Shown here: positions 1 to 64,000 of the stretch, piece by piece | Numbering within the stretch: the stretch's first letter is position 1 | Layout: each line of letters opens with the position of its first letter | DNA from: Magnetococcales bacterium WMHbin3 | Lineage (GTDB): Bacteria > Pseudomonadota > Magnetococcia > Magnetococcales > Magnetaquicoccaceae | DNA: 64,000 nt | Assembly: GCA_002753185.1 (NCBI GenBank) | Contig: PDZX01000010.1 | Coordinates: 1-64,000, forward strand | Direction of reading: 5' to 3' | The notes under the pieces: model-generated | The model's database searches: none | Told to the model about the DNA's origin: nothing | Seen by the model: the letters and a program-made list of their open reading frames with translations, nothing else | Translations under genes and position numbers: made by a program

Positions 1-3000
1 ATGCGCATGCTGCCCCGGCTCCTGCCCCACGAACCCTATCGGCCCTTGCGCCGCTTTCTGGAACAGGACGCCGATTCGCGCAAACGCTGGCAACTGGCCG
101 AGCGGCTGAGCGATCTTTTCGACCAGTACCAGGTCTACCGCGCCGACTGGCTGGATGCCTGGGCCAGGGGCGATGATGCGCTGATCGACGCCCGCAGGGG
201 AGGGGAACCCCTGCCCGAGGAGCAGCGCTGGCAGGCCGCGCTCTGGCGCGCGCTCCTCGAGGACGTGGAGCGCACCACCATGGGCCATCACGCCGGACGC
301 GCCGAGGTCCACGCCGCCTTTCTGCGCCATGCCGCCAGGCAAGACGACGCACGCCGCCCCCCCGGCCTGCCGCGCCGGGTGACGGTGTTCGGCATCACCT
401 CCCTCCCCCGGCAGTCCCTGGAGGTGCTGATGGTGTTGAGCCGCTGGACCCGGGTCGTGATGTACATCCACAATCCCTGCCAGTACTACTGGGCCGACAT
501 CGTGCCGGAACGGGAGCTGCTGCGCGTCGGACGCGCGGGCGCCAGGGCGCGTCCCGGCTTCCCGGACACCATCGACGAGGAACTCCTGCACCTGCACGCC
601 CATCCGCTGCTGGCGACCTGGGGCAGACAGGGCCGGGACTTCATCGGCCTGCTGGACGAACTGGCCAGCGACGGCAGCGACCTGGTGGAACGGGAGGAGC
701 GTTTCGAGCTGGCCGGGGAGGGGGCCGATACGCTGTTGCGGCAGTTGCAGGACGACATCCACGAGCTGCGCCCCCTGCGCGAAACCCGTGAGACCTGGCC
801 GGCGGTGGACCCGGACCGCGACCGCTCGGTGCGCTTTCACGTCGCCCACGGTGCGCTGCGCGAGGTGGAGATCCTGCACGACCAGCTCCTGGCGGCCCTG
901 AACGCCGACGCCACCCTGATCCCTGGGGAGATCCTGGTCATGGTGCCGGACATCGAGGCTTACGCCGCCCACGTCCAGGCGGTGTTCGGGCTGCATCACC
1001 CCACGGACGGACGCCGCATCCCGTTCGTGATCGCCAATCGGGCGCGGCGCGGGGCCGATCCCCTGCTGCGCGCGGTGGAGCGGCTGCTGGCCCTGCCCGG
1101 CTCGCGGCTGACGGCCGGCGACCTGATCGACTGGCTGGAGCTGCCGGCCCTGCGCCGGAAATTCGCCATCGGCAGCGAGGATCTGCCGCTCCTGCACCGC
1201 TGGATTCGCGGTTCCGGAATCCGCTGGGGATTGCACGCAGAGCATCGCGCCGCCCTGGGCCTGCCGGGGGGGATCGACGGCGAGGAGGCGCGCAACACCT
1301 GGCGCTTCGGGTTGCGGCGCATGCTGCTGGGGTATGCGGTGGGCGACCGGGGCACTCCCTGGCGAGGGATCGATCCCTACGACGAGATCGACGCCAACGC
1401 CGCCCGTCCTCTGGGGTCACTGATCCGGCTGATCGACGCCCTGGAGGAGACCTGGCGTCTCTTCGCCACCCCCGCCCCGGTCGAGGCGTGGTGCCAGCGT
1501 CTGCGCGCCCTGCTTGCGACCTTCTTTCTGCCGGACGACGGGGAGGAGGGGTATACCCTGTTGCAACTGGAGGCCAGCCTGGAACCGTGGCGGGAGGCGT
1601 GCGAGGAGGCGGGCCTGAACGAACCGCTGCCCCTCTCCGTGGTGGGCGACGCCTGGCTGGCGAGCATCGACGAGGGGGGGCTGTCCCAGGGATTTTTCGG
1701 CGGCGCGGTGACGTTTGCCACCTTGATGCCCATGCGCGCCATTCCGTTCCGGCATGTCTGCCTGCTGGGGATGAACGATGGCGCCTTTCCCCGTCCCACC
1801 ACCCCCATGGATTTCGACCTCATGGCCCGCCAGCGCCGTCCGGGGGACCGCTCGCGCCGGGAGGACGACCGCTATCTCTTTCTGGAGGCGGTGCTGTCGG
1901 CCCGCGAGGTCCTGTATGTCTCCTGGGTGGGCAGGAGCATCCACGACAACTCCGCAGCCCCCCCCTCGGTGCTGGTGGGGCGGTTGCGGGAGCACCTGGC
2001 GGCGGGGTGGCGGCTGGCCGGGGGCGGCGAACTCCTGGGGGCACTCACCGTCGAGCATCGCCTGCAACCCTTCAGCCGCGATTATTTTGCCAGTCATCCA
2101 GATGCGCCGTTCTTCACCTACGCCTGGGAGTGGCGGCCAGGCGGGCAGGCGAGCGTGATGACCTGCAACCGGCCCCTGCCGCCGGTGACGCGGGAGGAAC
2201 CGTTGACCCTGCTCGATCTGGCCCGGTTTCTCAAGGACCCGGCGCGCGCCTTTCATCAGGAGCGGCTGGGGGTGTTCTTCGAAAGTGGCGATACCCTGGC
2301 TGCGGACCAGGAACCCTTCGCCCCGGACGCCCTGGCGCGCTGGCAGCTCCGGGACGAGCTGATCCGTCATCAGGGCCGGGCGCTGGAACGGGGCGAGGCG
2401 GTCGAGGAGGCGCGGGCCGCCGCCCTGGAACGGATCCGGCTGCGCGGCGATCTGGCCGGGGGGGGGTGCGGGCGGGTCTTCGCCGACCATCTGGCCGCTC
2501 CCTTGGAGGAACTGGCCGCGCGTCAGGCCGAGGGGTTTTTGCAATGGCCGATCCCAGGCGCCGGGGAGGTGGAGGTCCTGCTGCAGGTGGAGGTGGCGCC
2601 CGGTGCCTGGATCGCCCTGGAGGACCGGGTGGCCCATCCGCGCACCGCCGCGTCGGGCGAGGCGGGCCGGGTGATCGCCCTGGCCGGGACGCTGGTGGAC
2701 AAAACCGGCTGCCATTACCATCGCGCCATCGTCCCCTGGGTGGAGCACCTGGCGCTGAATGGCACGGGTCTAGAAGTCACCACCCTGCTGCTGGGGGCAA
2801 AGGGCGGCATCGTGCTGCGCCCCATGCATCGGGATCTGGCCGAAAACCACTTGATTGTCATCTTGCGGGCCTGGTGGTCGGGCATGCAACGGCCCCTGCC
2901 CCTGGCCCTGGAGACCGGCCTGGCCTGGTTGACGGCAGGGGAGCAAAAGGCGCGTCCGACTTACGAGGGCACAGGCGAGGAGCCGGCCCAGGGCGGGGAG

Positions 3001-3129
3001 CGGAGGCGCGCCCCCTATCTGCCCCTGGTCTATCCGGATTTCGCGGCCCTGACCGCAAGCGGGGAGTTCGCCACCCTGGCCGAATCCCTGCTGCGACCGC
3101 TGCTGGAGGCCGGGGAGCCGCTGCCATGA
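1..3129 (+). CDS. recC: RecBCD subunit RecC, 5' end outside window
   Basis: RecC is the subunit of the RecBCD helicase-nuclease that recognises Chi and splits the duplex during double-strand break repair. The visible 1042 residues begin in the middle of the usual N-terminal helicase-like domain. The stretch DLFDQYQVYRADWLDAW near residue 39 normally lies over a hundred residues into RecC, so roughly the first 90-100 residues are missing because of the window edge. NPCQYYWADI (about 158-167) and PMDFDLMARQRRPGDRSRRE (about 602-621) are family hallmarks. The stop overlaps the recB start as ATGA, so recC and recB are translationally coupled. Family assignment is secure; the true start is not visible. 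Confidence 0.95.
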   Translation: MRMLPRLLPHEPYRPLRRFLEQDADSRKRWQLAERLSDLFDQYQVYRADWLDAWARGDDALIDARRGGEPLPEEQRWQAALWRALLEDVERTTMGHHAGRAEVHAAFLRHAARQDDARRPPGLPRRVTVFGITSLPRQSLEVLMVLSRWTRVVMYIHNPCQYYWADIVPERELLRVGRAGARARPGFPDTIDEELLHLHAHPLLATWGRQGRDFIGLLDELASDGSDLVEREERFELAGEGADTLLRQLQDDIHELRPLRETRETWPAVDPDRDRSVRFHVAHGALREVEILHDQLLAALNADATLIPGEILVMVPDIEAYAAHVQAVFGLHHPTDGRRIPFVIANRARRGADPLLRAVERLLALPGSRLTAGDLIDWLELPALRRKFAIGSEDLPLLHRWIRGSGIRWGLHAEHRAALGLPGGIDGEEARNTWRFGLRRMLLGYAVGDRGTPWRGIDPYDEIDANAARPLGSLIRLIDALEETWRLFATPAPVEAWCQRLRALLATFFLPDDGEEGYTLLQLEASLEPWREACEEAGLNEPLPLSVVGDAWLASIDEGGLSQGFFGGAVTFATLMPMRAIPFRHVCLLGMNDGAFPRPTTPMDFDLMARQRRPGDRSRREDDRYLFLEAVLSAREVLYVSWVGRSIHDNSAAPPSVLVGRLREHLAAGWRLAGGGELLGALTVEHRLQPFSRDYFASHPDAPFFTYAWEWRPGGQASVMTCNRPLPPVTREEPLTLLDLARFLKDPARAFHQERLGVFFESGDTLAADQEPFAPDALARWQLRDELIRHQGRALERGEAVEEARAAALERIRLRGDLAGGGCGRVFADHLAAPLEELAARQAEGFLQWPIPGAGEVEVLLQVEVAPGAWIALEDRVAHPRTAASGEAGRVIALAGTLVDKTGCHYHRAIVPWVEHLALNGTGLEVTTLLLGAKGGIVLRPMHRDLAENHLIVILRAWWSGMQRPLPLALETGLAWLTAGEQKARPTYEGTGEEPAQGGERRRAPYLPLVYPDFAALTASGEFATLAESLLRPLLEAGEPLP

Positions 3130-60862: not shown

Positions 60863-61123
60863 TCAGTGCGGGAAGAAGGTCTTGAGGATAAGGGCCAGTA
60901 CTCCGGCCATCAAAACGCCAAGCATCCATTTGAGCAGGTGGATTTCGGCCATGATTTCCAATTTGAGTTCCCGCAAATCGCCCTTGGTGGCCAACTCTTT
61001 CAACTGGCTGTCCTGGACTTCCCACATCGCCTCCGCATGCGCTTCGGCTTGCTTCTCATCCACTCCGGCCGCCTTGAGGGTCTTGACGAATTTCAGCGTG
61101 TCGAACGCAACGGCACAGGTCAT
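60863..61123 (-). CDS. Small coiled-coil/membrane protein, copy 1 (DUF1640-like)
   Basis: An 86-residue protein with FDTLKFVKTLKAAGVDEKQA at the start, a coiled coil (AEAMWEVQDSQLKELATKGD) and a C-terminal transmembrane helix (LLKWMLGVLMAGVLALILKTFF). This resembles the DUF1640/CCDC90-like family, anchored by a C-terminal helix. It is a paralogue of the gene at 61793, and its flanks are duplicated too. Its ribosome site is poorer than that of copy 2. Confidence 0.7.
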   Translation of the reverse strand: MTCAVAFDTLKFVKTLKAAGVDEKQAEAHAEAMWEVQDSQLKELATKGDLRELKLEIMAEIHLLKWMLGVLMAGVLALILKTFFPH

Positions 61124-61792
61124 GGTGGGTTGCTCTATCCTAAGGATTGATGACGCCATCAGCATACCACGCCCGCCACCAGCCTGGAGCAAAAAAAAGC
61201 GGGGGTGGTGAATTTTCCTCTTGCAATGCCAGGGCAGTTTTACGATTTCTGCTTGATTTTCTTGGTGTTGCGGAACTTCAGGGAACCTGCTGGAAGGATT
61301 TTTGGCTGACCCTGCTTCACATTGATCGATTAATTCATTGAATTTGCTTGATAAGTAGTCGAGCAATTTTTCCGCATACCGTAAAAAATACCGTAAAATT
61401 TTCTCGCTGCCCCCCTCGTCAATTCGCTGACTCCCGCGACCAGGGAGTGGGATTCCGCATGATTCAGGCAACCAATGCGCCAGCCTGTCAGGTGGTGGGC
61501 TTCTCCCTGGACGGCACCACCCGGAACCCGCAGGGCCTCCCCTCGCCCGCCGCATCGATTTGTCGGCACTGCCCGCCAGGGGGAAGAATCGTTACCCGGC
61601 CAGGTGGTGATCTCCCTGGCGGAAGGTCCGCCCTCTCCCCCTCAATCTGGAGCATGACGGCACTGGCGCGCACAGGAAGCACCCAGCCGCGTTTTTGACT
61701 CGCGGGCAAGGCTACGCCCCTTGCGGGTGGTGATCTCGTCTCCTGGCGATTCCTGGTGCGGGGGTGGGTGCGCTTGTCTGTTGGCGGTGGGG
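61124..61792. other. 669-base interval without a supported gene
   Basis: It contains the duplicated flank 61141-61233 and then AT-rich followed by GC-rich sequence. Reading frames on both strands are short, and none has a recognisable motif together with a ribosome site. It may be decayed coding sequence left by the duplication. Confidence 0.6.
61141..61233. repeat. 93-bp direct repeat upstream of the small membrane gene, copy 1
   Basis: It matches 62115-62207 at about 90 % by eye. With the paralogous genes, it marks a tandem duplication with a period of about 0.97 kb (roughly 60830-61233 and 61760-62207). Confidence 0.8.
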
Positions 61793-62101
61793 TCAGTGCG
61801 GGAAGAAGGTCTTGAGGATCAGTGCAACGATTCCACCGACGGTCACGGCCATGCCCCACCGCATGGTGGCAAGATCGCCATGGATTTTGGCCATGTCGGC
61901 GGCAATGCGCAATGCAAGCTCCTTGATGTCACGTTTGACTTCCTGGATGTCGCCCTTGGTGGCCAGCCCAGCCAGTTGGGCATCCTGGACTTCCTTGAAC
62001 GCCTCCGAGAATGCTTCGGCCTGCTTCTCTTCCACTCCGGCATCTCGCAGACGACGGACGAATTTCAAGGTGTCGAAGGTCATGGTCGCGGCTGTGCTCA
62101 T
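61793..62101 (-). CDS. Small coiled-coil/membrane protein, copy 2 (DUF1640-like)
   Basis: A 102-residue paralogue of the 60863 gene: MTFDTLKFVRRLRDAGVEEK, a coiled coil (DAQLAGLATKGDIQEVKRDI, about 30 residues longer than in copy 1) and a C-terminal helix (GMAVTVGGIVALILKTFF) ending in PH in both. GGGAGG lies 7 bases before ATG 62101, so it is likely expressed. Confidence 0.75.
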   Translation of the reverse strand: MSTAATMTFDTLKFVRRLRDAGVEEKQAEAFSEAFKEVQDAQLAGLATKGDIQEVKRDIKELALRIAADMAKIHGDLATMRWGMAVTVGGIVALILKTFFPH

Positions 62102-62114
62102 TTCGAATCCTCCC

Positions 62115-62207
62115 AAGGATTGATGACGCCATCAGCATACCACGCCCGCCACCAGCCCGGAGAAAAAAAATGCGGGGGTGGTGCATTTTCCGCTTGCCTT
62201 GCCAGGG
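62115..62207. repeat. 93-bp direct repeat upstream of the small membrane gene, copy 2
   Basis: Partner of 61141-61233. Both copies start immediately upstream of their gene and include an A-run of about eight. Confidence 0.8.
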
Positions 62208-62261
62208 GAGGACACGCTCACGCCATCGGAACAAGGCCGCCTTCCCTGGCAGCCTCGCCAA

Positions 62262-62801
62262 TCAACACCAGACTTTTGGAGTTCCCAGCCGCTGTTGAGC
62301 GAATCTGTTTTGCGCGTAGATCGCCGCAGATGCATGGGCAATACGGCTCCCTGCATGGACAAGCACGGCTCGAAGGTCATCCAAGAACGGTTCCAACTCA
62401 CCCGACGCGATCCCCCGGCCTTCTTCCCGTCTGGCGCGAGCAAGAGCGTGCAACTCGTTCAGCAGGGCATCGCCGTCGTCAAAGTCCCGCTTGTCGGAAA
62501 GCTGGTGTCGTCGCTGGTACGGTTCTGGGGTTTCGCCAGGGGGCAGCATGTCGGCGTCAAGCAGACGAAGCTTGCCTTTGTGGGTGACGCGAAGACGGCG
62601 CGCTTCTTCCCCCTTGCGGGGTGTTGTATCCACGCACACCCGGCCCGCATGACAGGCAGGCACAAGCCATGCCGGATCGCAGGCACAAAAATACCGCAAG
62701 GCTGACGGGTGCGGTATCCGCTTCAGTTTGTAGGGGTTTTCGGCCCCGTTGATGCAGATTGCCACCCTTCCTGGCCAACGGTCAAGGGAATGTGTGGGCA
62801 T
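62262..62801 (-). CDS. Protein of unknown function
   Basis: A 179-residue protein that I do not recognise. It has an N-terminal part with YFCACDPAWLVPACHAG (three Cys and a His) and a charged helical C-terminal half (DFDDGDALLNELHALARARR, LEPFLDDLRAVLVHAG). Codon choice is consistent with the genome. The start is uncertain (ATG 62801 or 62849) and there is no clear ribosome site. It stands alone after the duplicated pair. Confidence 0.45.
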   Translation of the reverse strand: MPTHSLDRWPGRVAICINGAENPYKLKRIPHPSALRYFCACDPAWLVPACHAGRVCVDTTPRKGEEARRLRVTHKGKLRLLDADMLPPGETPEPYQRRHQLSDKRDFDDGDALLNELHALARARREEGRGIASGELEPFLDDLRAVLVHAGSRIAHASAAIYAQNRFAQQRLGTPKVWC

Positions 62802-62849
62802 CTTGCCGGGTGTCCCCGTGGTGCGCCCGCGCCCGGCACCAGCTTTCAC

Positions 62850-63500
62850 CCCATCGGCCCACCATCGAGGAACCGCGTACAGATGGCCTTGCAGCCGTTC
62901 GAGACACCATCCCGCTACCCATGCCTTCCTCTATCCCAAAAACGCGTCCACGGCCTTTGTAGCGCAATGGCGGGCATATGAAACGGCAGGGTATCCCCAC
63001 GCCGCGCGCCATCGCGGCACCACCTCCCCCGGCCATCGGGTTGGGAGGAACGGCGCGGGCTGATGTACCCGACCCGGCCCGACTGCTGCCGGGATCGGGT
63101 GCAAGTGCGCGGTGATGCGCATCTGCCAGCCTCAACCCTTCCCTTGGCTGGCCATGGATTCTACACCAACCAAATCGACTCGATTAAAATACCACACTGA
63201 TTAATATTTAATTTCAATGACTTGATGATTAGTAGATTGTTTTGGTTTCGTGTCTACACGTCAAAGACAGGGTGCATGTGGTGCGGATCTATCCGCGATG
63301 ACATGCCTGCCCCGGCACACACCCCACGCACAAGCGGGAGTGCCTGCCACACCACCCGTTTGATTGCTCCCTGGTAGCCCCGCCGCGATGCCACGACCAC
63401 GACACCAGAACATGTTAGCATATCCTTCCAGGGTCCTTCCTGGAAAGCGGCTTGAGCGGGTTGTTTCACCCTCGGCATCGCAATACACACGCACACGTTT
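62850..63500. other. Interval without a supported gene
   Basis: It is GC-rich to about 63160 and then AT-rich. Frames are short and without motif on either strand. Confidence 0.5.
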
Positions 63501-63506
63501 TCACAA

Positions 63507-63801
63507 GGTTGACAAAATGGGGCTTTTTTGGCCAAAAACGCCATCTAACCATTTGAAATCATTGAATCACTTTGTTGACACGCTAAAGTCAACTAACATA
63601 TTTTCTTTTTTCTATATTATTGAAATCGTTCAATATCTTGGTTGACAAACGAGCGTTCAACTAACATATTTACATTTTGACAAAAATATTAATTATCTTA
63701 TTGAATTTAATTGATAATTCTTGTTACAAATTTTGTCAACCTGCCCGAATTTGTCAACCAAGTGAGAGGCAATTTTGTCAACCTACCCGGTTTTGTCAGC
63801 C
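63507..63801. repeat. Array of GGTTGACAA/TTGTCAACC motifs, iteron- or operator-like
   Basis: GGTTGACAA occurs at 63507-63515 and 63640-63648, with a GTTGACA relative at 63574. The reverse form TTGTCAACC occurs at 63733, 63751 and 63775, with TTGTCAGCC at 63793. The last four sit at spacings 18, 24 and 18, so 63731-63759 and 63773-63801 are near-identical copies 42 bases apart. A ~32-base near-repeat joins 63574 and 63641 (67 bases apart), each ending CAACTAACATATTT. The region between them is very AT-rich. Confidence 0.7.
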
Positions 63802-63883
63802 AAATTACCGGACAGCGGCGCGGCTCCGATGCCCCCGCCTGGAGGTATCCCCGGCCTGCCCCGGTCCACCCGGCCCCGCCCCC

Positions 63884-64000
63884 TCAACCGGGGGGTGCCG
63901 CTCTCTCTGCCGGGTGTTCGCTCCCGATCCCGGCCTCCTGACCATGGGGTTGACCATCGGTCAAAGCCTTCTCCAGCAGTTGCACCGCAGCACGAAATTT
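63884..64000 (-). CDS. Possible 3' end of a gene that starts beyond the window
   Basis: On the minus strand an open frame enters at the right edge (KFRAAVQLLEKALTDG...) and ends after 38 residues in a Pro/Gly-rich tail. Amphipathic Leu/Ala spacing is typical of a real helix. If genuine, it ends about 80 bases before the repeat array. Too short to identify. Confidence 0.3.
   Translation of the reverse strand, partial: KFRAAVQLLEKALTDGQPHGQEAGIGSEHPAERAAPPG

Follow-up and report, generated by a model that had tools for sequence, protein, structure and literature searches.

The repeat array at the right edge of the window (the whole 64,000-nucleotide stretch analysed, which stops within the 90,070 bp contig C94 of the draft genome of Magnetococcales bacterium WMHbin3) is very probably the cosB of a lambda-type cos site, ordered cosQ (63431), cosN (∼63458) and cosB (63507–63801), on a small phage satellite that encodes an integrase, AlpA and a primase. 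Read from the DNA itself, the case comprises the array, a match to cosQ, homology to phage cos regions, the integration of the element, an empty integration site in a sister genome, and the result that family searches (Pfam, PHROGs and NCBIfam) found no terminase or capsid genes in the element. The features of the cos region, in window positions, are:

63431–63443, plus strand: cosQ-like GGGTCCTTCCTGG, the sole exact match in the 64-kb window
63456–63471, plus strand: putative cosN GCGGGTTGTTTCACCC, a GGGT...ACCC dyad, assigned by position and weak similarity and on its own not above chance
63499–63515, plus strand: TTTCACAAGGTTGACAA, which combines the leading R-type site and the conserved sequence next to it; counted from the predicted end, the R core starts at bp 50
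63507 (plus), 63640 (plus), 63733 (minus), 63751 (minus), 63775 (minus): exact GGTTGACAA sites
63793 (minus): degenerate GGTTGACAA site, one mismatch
63573 (plus), 63675 (plus): degenerate GGTTGACAA sites, two mismatches each
63589–63602, plus strand: TCAACTAACATATT copy 1, containing a degenerate inverted R site
63657–63670, plus strand: TCAACTAACATATT copy 2

The array thus holds five exact R-type sites and degenerate ones in both orientations, the exact sites comprising two rightward-facing on the left side and three leftward-facing on the right, and a conserved TTTCACAA precedes the first of them. Its GC content is 33%, and 23% in the core (63580–63730). The sequence-only reading had described some seven motifs in both orientations in AT-rich DNA, which holds with five exact and three degenerate sites, as does its 42-base higher repeat, seen here as a 33-nt unit at 63729–63761 and 63771–63803 (88% identical); the 18–24-base steps it reported apply to the right-hand cluster (18/24/18 between 63733, 63751, 63775 and 63793), not to the rest of the array. 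That reading did not pick up the two TCAACTAACATATT copies, the TTTCACAA ahead of the first site or the cosQ-like GGGTCCTTCCTGG at 63431. Against these five exact sites, 5000 Markov-1 sequences of the same composition averaged 0.007 and never exceeded 1. Across the 4.6 Mb genome the exact 9-mer has 28 matches versus 57 for a reversed control pattern, and 12 of the 28 fall in two clusters, the window array (5) and contig C36 (7). By these counts it is the clustering of GGTTGACAA, not the motif itself, that is enriched genome-wide.

The array lies inside an insertion at tRNA-Asn whose right part runs on beyond the window. In contig positions, which are also window positions up to 64000, the element comprises:

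61292–64000: left part of the element, the remainder lying beyond the window, to 67961
61282–61307: attL, whose 26 nt are also found unchanged at the empty tRNA-Asn site of sister genome G001
61292–61307 and 67962–67977 (attR): 16-nt att core GGAAGGATTTTTGGCT
61793–62116, minus strand: CCDC90-like coiled-coil ORF, 107 aa, scoring under the Pfam cut-off; these genomes have several copies
62262–62849, minus strand: candidate ORF, 195 aa, with no family match, uncertain whether a real gene
63884–64093 (63884–64000 in the window), minus strand: small ORF, 69 aa, between array and primase
64232–65347, minus strand: primase, 371 aa (PriCT_2, DUF7146, Toprim_3)
65362–65625, minus strand: AlpA
65769–66503 (L009:5769–6503), minus strand: 244-aa gene between AlpA and integrase
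66603–67739, minus strand: tyrosine integrase
67973–68048, minus strand: tRNA-Asn, beside attR

In Magnetococcales bacterium nNGHbin2 (G001) the corresponding locus matches at 91% identity as far as 60813 and from 67899 onwards; the 1.4 kb in between shows no apparent integrase, AlpA, primase or array, and ahead of the tRNA-Asn stand the 26 nt seen here at the left end of the element. Given the att repeats and this unoccupied site, the 6,670-bp stretch (contig 61292–67961) is therefore an integrated mobile element with the array inside it. The 244-aa gene is AT-rich (31–41% GC, compared to 57% for the element), has no confident family match and is a possible cargo or defence gene. CCDC90-like coiled-coil genes are multicopy, several of them beside mobile elements (60863–61150 and 61793–62116 in the window; C122, C86 and others in G001). 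Elsewhere in the window's genome, contig C102 (L100:8298–9112) has fragments that match parts of the element at 85–86% identity, the primase region among them, and is a degraded sister.

A search for paired GGTTGACAA in 61 related genomes gave matches in seven genomes, versus a handful for the reversed control. Arrays of this motif occur in at least 11 Magnetococcales prophages, spanning several genera, before the genes for a ParB-methyltransferase and the terminase small (TerS) and large (TerL) subunits. In all seven contexts that were read out (C36; G001 C12 and C20; G029 C10; G012 C89 and C158; G014 C44) the array is directly upstream of the ParB-methyltransferase gene, which in G014:C44 is deduced from an antisense ORF lying at the end of the contig; TerS and TerL follow where the contig continues. 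Further arrays lie upstream of other small terminases in G046, G024 and two prophages of G027, a closed genome in one contig. C36, a 35 kb phage contig that is not closed, belongs to the same draft genome as the window, a link that depends on the binning of 157 contigs; its TerL belongs to the lambda gpA family, and it also encodes a portal, head protease, major head protein, tail tape measure and major tail protein. Within this genome TCAACTAACATATT recurs only in the C36 cluster, as one exact and one one-mismatch copy, and it is absent (at ≤2 mismatches) from eight other cos-array loci tested. By sequence, then, the closest match to the window array is C36, the sole other carrier of TCAACTAACATATT in the genome and the loci tested. 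For the IHF consensus, the C36 array has three exact matches and the window array one-mismatch matches only.

Beyond these prophages, a scan of the genome collection with TTTCACAAGGTTGACAA gave 37 matches, two of them Magnetococcales phages, and a cluster scan found no array at the remainder. Viral contigs held no match to cosQ plus first R, nor to the element primase, and their two-copy GGTTGACAA matches were mostly chance or coding repeats, L166, L140 and L211 alone resembling cos regions. Two very short contigs of the window's genome, C153 and C10 (L354, L355), carry a broken or partial second gpA-type TerL, so that more than one related phage is represented there. A dense ACCTCAGG/AACCTGAGG repeat tract was also seen shortly before the phage cos array of G012:C158 (L041:7889–8641).

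Most array phages, like the window (63431–63443), have a conserved GGKTCCTTCCTGG box ∼75 bp ahead of the first repeat, and in these sequences it is positioned like the cosQ of lambda, which reads GGGTCCT. When the pre-repeat DNA of phages and window is aligned, the order is GGKTCCTTCCTGG, cohesive-end position, AGCG/CTAGCG-type spacer and array, with constant spacing. A search of 48 genomes for cosQ-N(30–60)-CAAGGTTGAC returned eight matches, seven phage loci and the window, against none for the control. The predicted left cohesive end starts near 63458 (GGGT) and the first repeat then begins at bp 50; in lambda, R3 occupies bp 50–65 (PMC9026076) and cosQ is the sub-site on which the termination of packaging depends (PMC4669245, PMC9026076). 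Compared with phage cosN, the sequence separating cosQ from the first R in the window scores 2.5, below the 95% level of 6.0 for random window segments; only the whole 76 bp stands out, at 19.0, where the highest of 2000 background values was 14.5. The cosQ-to-first-R spacing is 2–3 bp longer in the window than in the phages, and lambda is sensitive to the spacing of cosN and cosB. The weak cosN or the longer spacing could mean that cutting is relaxed, that the helper has changed or that the site has decayed.

In lambda, the wHTH of the small terminase binds the cosB repeats. The TerS of C36 has relatives in RcC-cluster Rhodobacter phages, among which RcKemmy and RcHotPocket have 11-nt 5' cohesive ends (PMC8601537). 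RcKemmy, 45% identical to C36 in TerL and 37% in the portal, has a ParB-like gene 1 at its end, then three small genes, TerS, TerL and portal, and its left end consists of the overhang, a spacer with CCCTAGCG and a GGTTTCCAC array from ∼46 bases in. GGTTGAC arrays occur in 10 phages with an FSRQYV-type recognition helix, including the viral contig L166 (FSRQYA); in RcKemmy the TerS helix is GVSHTAVGK and the repeat motif differs likewise. The match of helix and motif is imperfect, because G045 keeps the FSRQYV helix and an intact cosQ with a diverged array (CTTGACA), and G035 keeps the helix with no such array found in the 13 kb upstream of TerS. Across the sequences compared the correspondence appears good, not perfect, and spans few independent lineages. 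Upstream of the related terminase of G035, TTGGTCCA and GCAATC-type words alternate over a long array (L338, reverse strand, 2720–3079), with no cosQ box. The predicted TerS model is confident only over the N-terminal 47 residues (wHTH, pLDDT ∼89); its fold matches are weak, the best being a phage Xis (E 0.24), and a sequence comparison of TerS with solved structures gave no match.

The array could instead be a replication origin, with opposed iteron sets around an AT-rich core beside the primase and bound by an initiator, a reading we regard as unlikely. In E. coli PICIs the origin, located after pri-rep, does have an AT-rich region with an iteron set on either side (PMC6092414), the window core is similarly AT-rich and the array near the primase, and iteron-like arrays occur just behind the primase-helicase in related primase elements and prophages. 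These origin-type arrays, however, use other motifs, lie directly behind the primase-helicase and lack cosQ, whereas the phage GGTTGACAA arrays are far from the D5-type primase-helicase and beside the terminase genes; in G012:C89 the distance is more than 8 kb. The element holds neither a helicase nor an initiator gene, its 371-aa primase standing alone, and the adjoining cognate initiator of an iteron origin was not found; opposed orientations are also seen in phage arrays, for example in G029. Other primase-bearing loci in relatives had no cosQ and no GGTTGACAA arrays. Dense short-motif arrays do lie behind primase or primase-helicase genes at L093:10013–10246, L097:11034–11243 and L099:11107–11327 and, on the reverse strand, at about 2130–2366 in L342 and 1612–1843 in L343, with the motifs GTCCGGCAA, GGTGTCCT, CGTTGGCA, ATGGTCCGG and CGTTCCCGG and often a C-run/G-run hairpin following; these resemble replication origins with an iteron sequence that differs between elements. 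The sequence-only reading had proposed a plasmid-type origin, a partition site or an operator, with the gene entering from the right as initiator or repressor. What survives of it is a probable multi-site protein-binding array near a replication gene, the primase; its specific assignments do not, as the same array in prophages adjoins the terminase genes, not their primase-helicase, and its position corresponds to the cohesive end of a related phage with determined ends. To the right lie the 69-aa ORF and then the primase, and family searches recognised neither an iteron-binding initiator nor a repressor.

Decay of a prophage, leaving a cos with no satellite use, would fit the weakly conserved cosN and the relics in the same genome of a related terminase (C153, C10) and a related primase element (C102), yet nothing in the element was recognised as a pseudogene for a terminase, portal or capsid. 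Its integrase, AlpA and primase frames are open, and G001:C33 holds a collinear sister element with integrase, AlpA and primase, likewise with no structural genes recognised; no cos was found in this sister. With these open frames and the collinear sister, the element looks like a satellite lineage, and we consider a mere remnant quite improbable. An operator or partition site for the ParB-like methyltransferase or another regulator, suggested by the position of the phage arrays directly upstream of that gene, is very improbable: the window element has the array but not the gene, and such a role leaves the cosQ box, the fixed spacing and the cohesive end of RcKemmy unexplained. We give as little credence to a sponge, in which the array would soak up helper TerS and hinder helper packaging while itself staying uncut. 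The rich cosB array, the poorly conserved cosN and the lack of a recognised Rpp-like gene are in keeping with it, but the cosQ-like box is kept exactly and the first R site is spaced as expected from a plausible cosN.

A helper-type cos on a satellite, our preferred reading, can be set beside several known systems. Like the cos sites of lambda, 21, phi80 and N15, the array-bearing loci have the order cosQ-cosN-cosB (with cosN putative in the window), R-type repeats in both orientations and a first R at ∼bp 50, and the array phages share a gpA-family TerL and a wHTH TerS; they differ in having 5–12 R-type sites with the motif GGTTGACAA rather than one or three, and in the ParB-methyltransferase gene between cos and terS, while the window site sits in an element that lacks a terminase. 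RcKemmy and RcHotPocket show the same succession of cohesive end, repeat array, ParB-like gene, TerS, TerL and portal, but they are full phages, not satellites, with the motif GGTTTCCAC and another TerS recognition helix. The cos-type SaPIs are Gram-positive, and their terminase, cos family and genes differ from those of the window element. SaPIs that use helper cos sites are described (PMC5052747), and in this they resemble the window element, a probable satellite with a helper-type cos.

Among Gram-negative satellites, the phage-inducible chromosomal minimalist islands (PICMI) of Vibrionaceae are similar in size (∼6–7 kb), in the succession integrase, unknown gene, AlpA and primase, and in having no capsid or terminase genes (PMC10803314). 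PICMI lie beside fis, whereas the window element is at tRNA-Asn in Magnetococcales, and its primase (PriCT_2/DUF7146/Toprim) is unlike that of the PICMI model (DUF3987/DUF5906; PMC10803314). With the fis site and the primase type both lacking, we do not class it as a PICMI despite its gene content. Further, no cos or pac was found in PICMI115, for which headful packaging was suggested (PMC10803314), whereas the window element carries a helper-type cos. The Gram-negative cos PICIs such as EcCICFT073 (PMC6092414, PMC6739421, PMC9026076) share an integrase, AlpA, a primase, cosQ and cosN, and use of the helper terminase, the last two being putative in the window element, but these PICIs lack the phage R sequences and their Rpp retargets TerS (PMC9026076, PMC6739421). 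The window element instead has helper-type R sites, and no Rpp-like protein was matched in it (Pfam, PHROGs, NCBIfam), Rpp being diverse and some small ORFs lacking an assignment.

As the element has no virus-particle genes, it would ride in the particles of a C36-like phage. We infer TerS binding, the exact cut, and the mobilisation and multimer packaging of the element: induction of a helper related to C36 would be accompanied by excision from tRNA-Asn through AlpA and integrase, the primase would help the element replicate into concatemers, helper TerS (wHTH, recognition helix FSRQYV) would bind the GGTTGACAA sites, and the gpA-type TerL would nick cosN, so that satellite DNA is packaged into helper particles. 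Packaging may be as multimers, six copies of 6,670 bp giving 40.0 kb, a figure that is arithmetic only. It is quite possible, and we put this forward tentatively, that the satellite hijacks packaging purely in cis, through a helper-matched multi-site cosB that may also act as a TerS sponge and with no Rpp-type retargeting protein, phage specificity arising from an amplified array of TerS sites that coevolves with the recognition helix.

If this is correct, satellite biology would extend to magnetotactic cocci, and cos architecture would include sites with many TerS-binding repeats, not one or three. The shared packaging site links the satellite to its likely helper, and would offer a way of pairing satellites with helpers from sequence alone. 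The correspondence of cosB motif and TerS helix across these phages is directly testable, and the closed genome G027 carries two such prophages.
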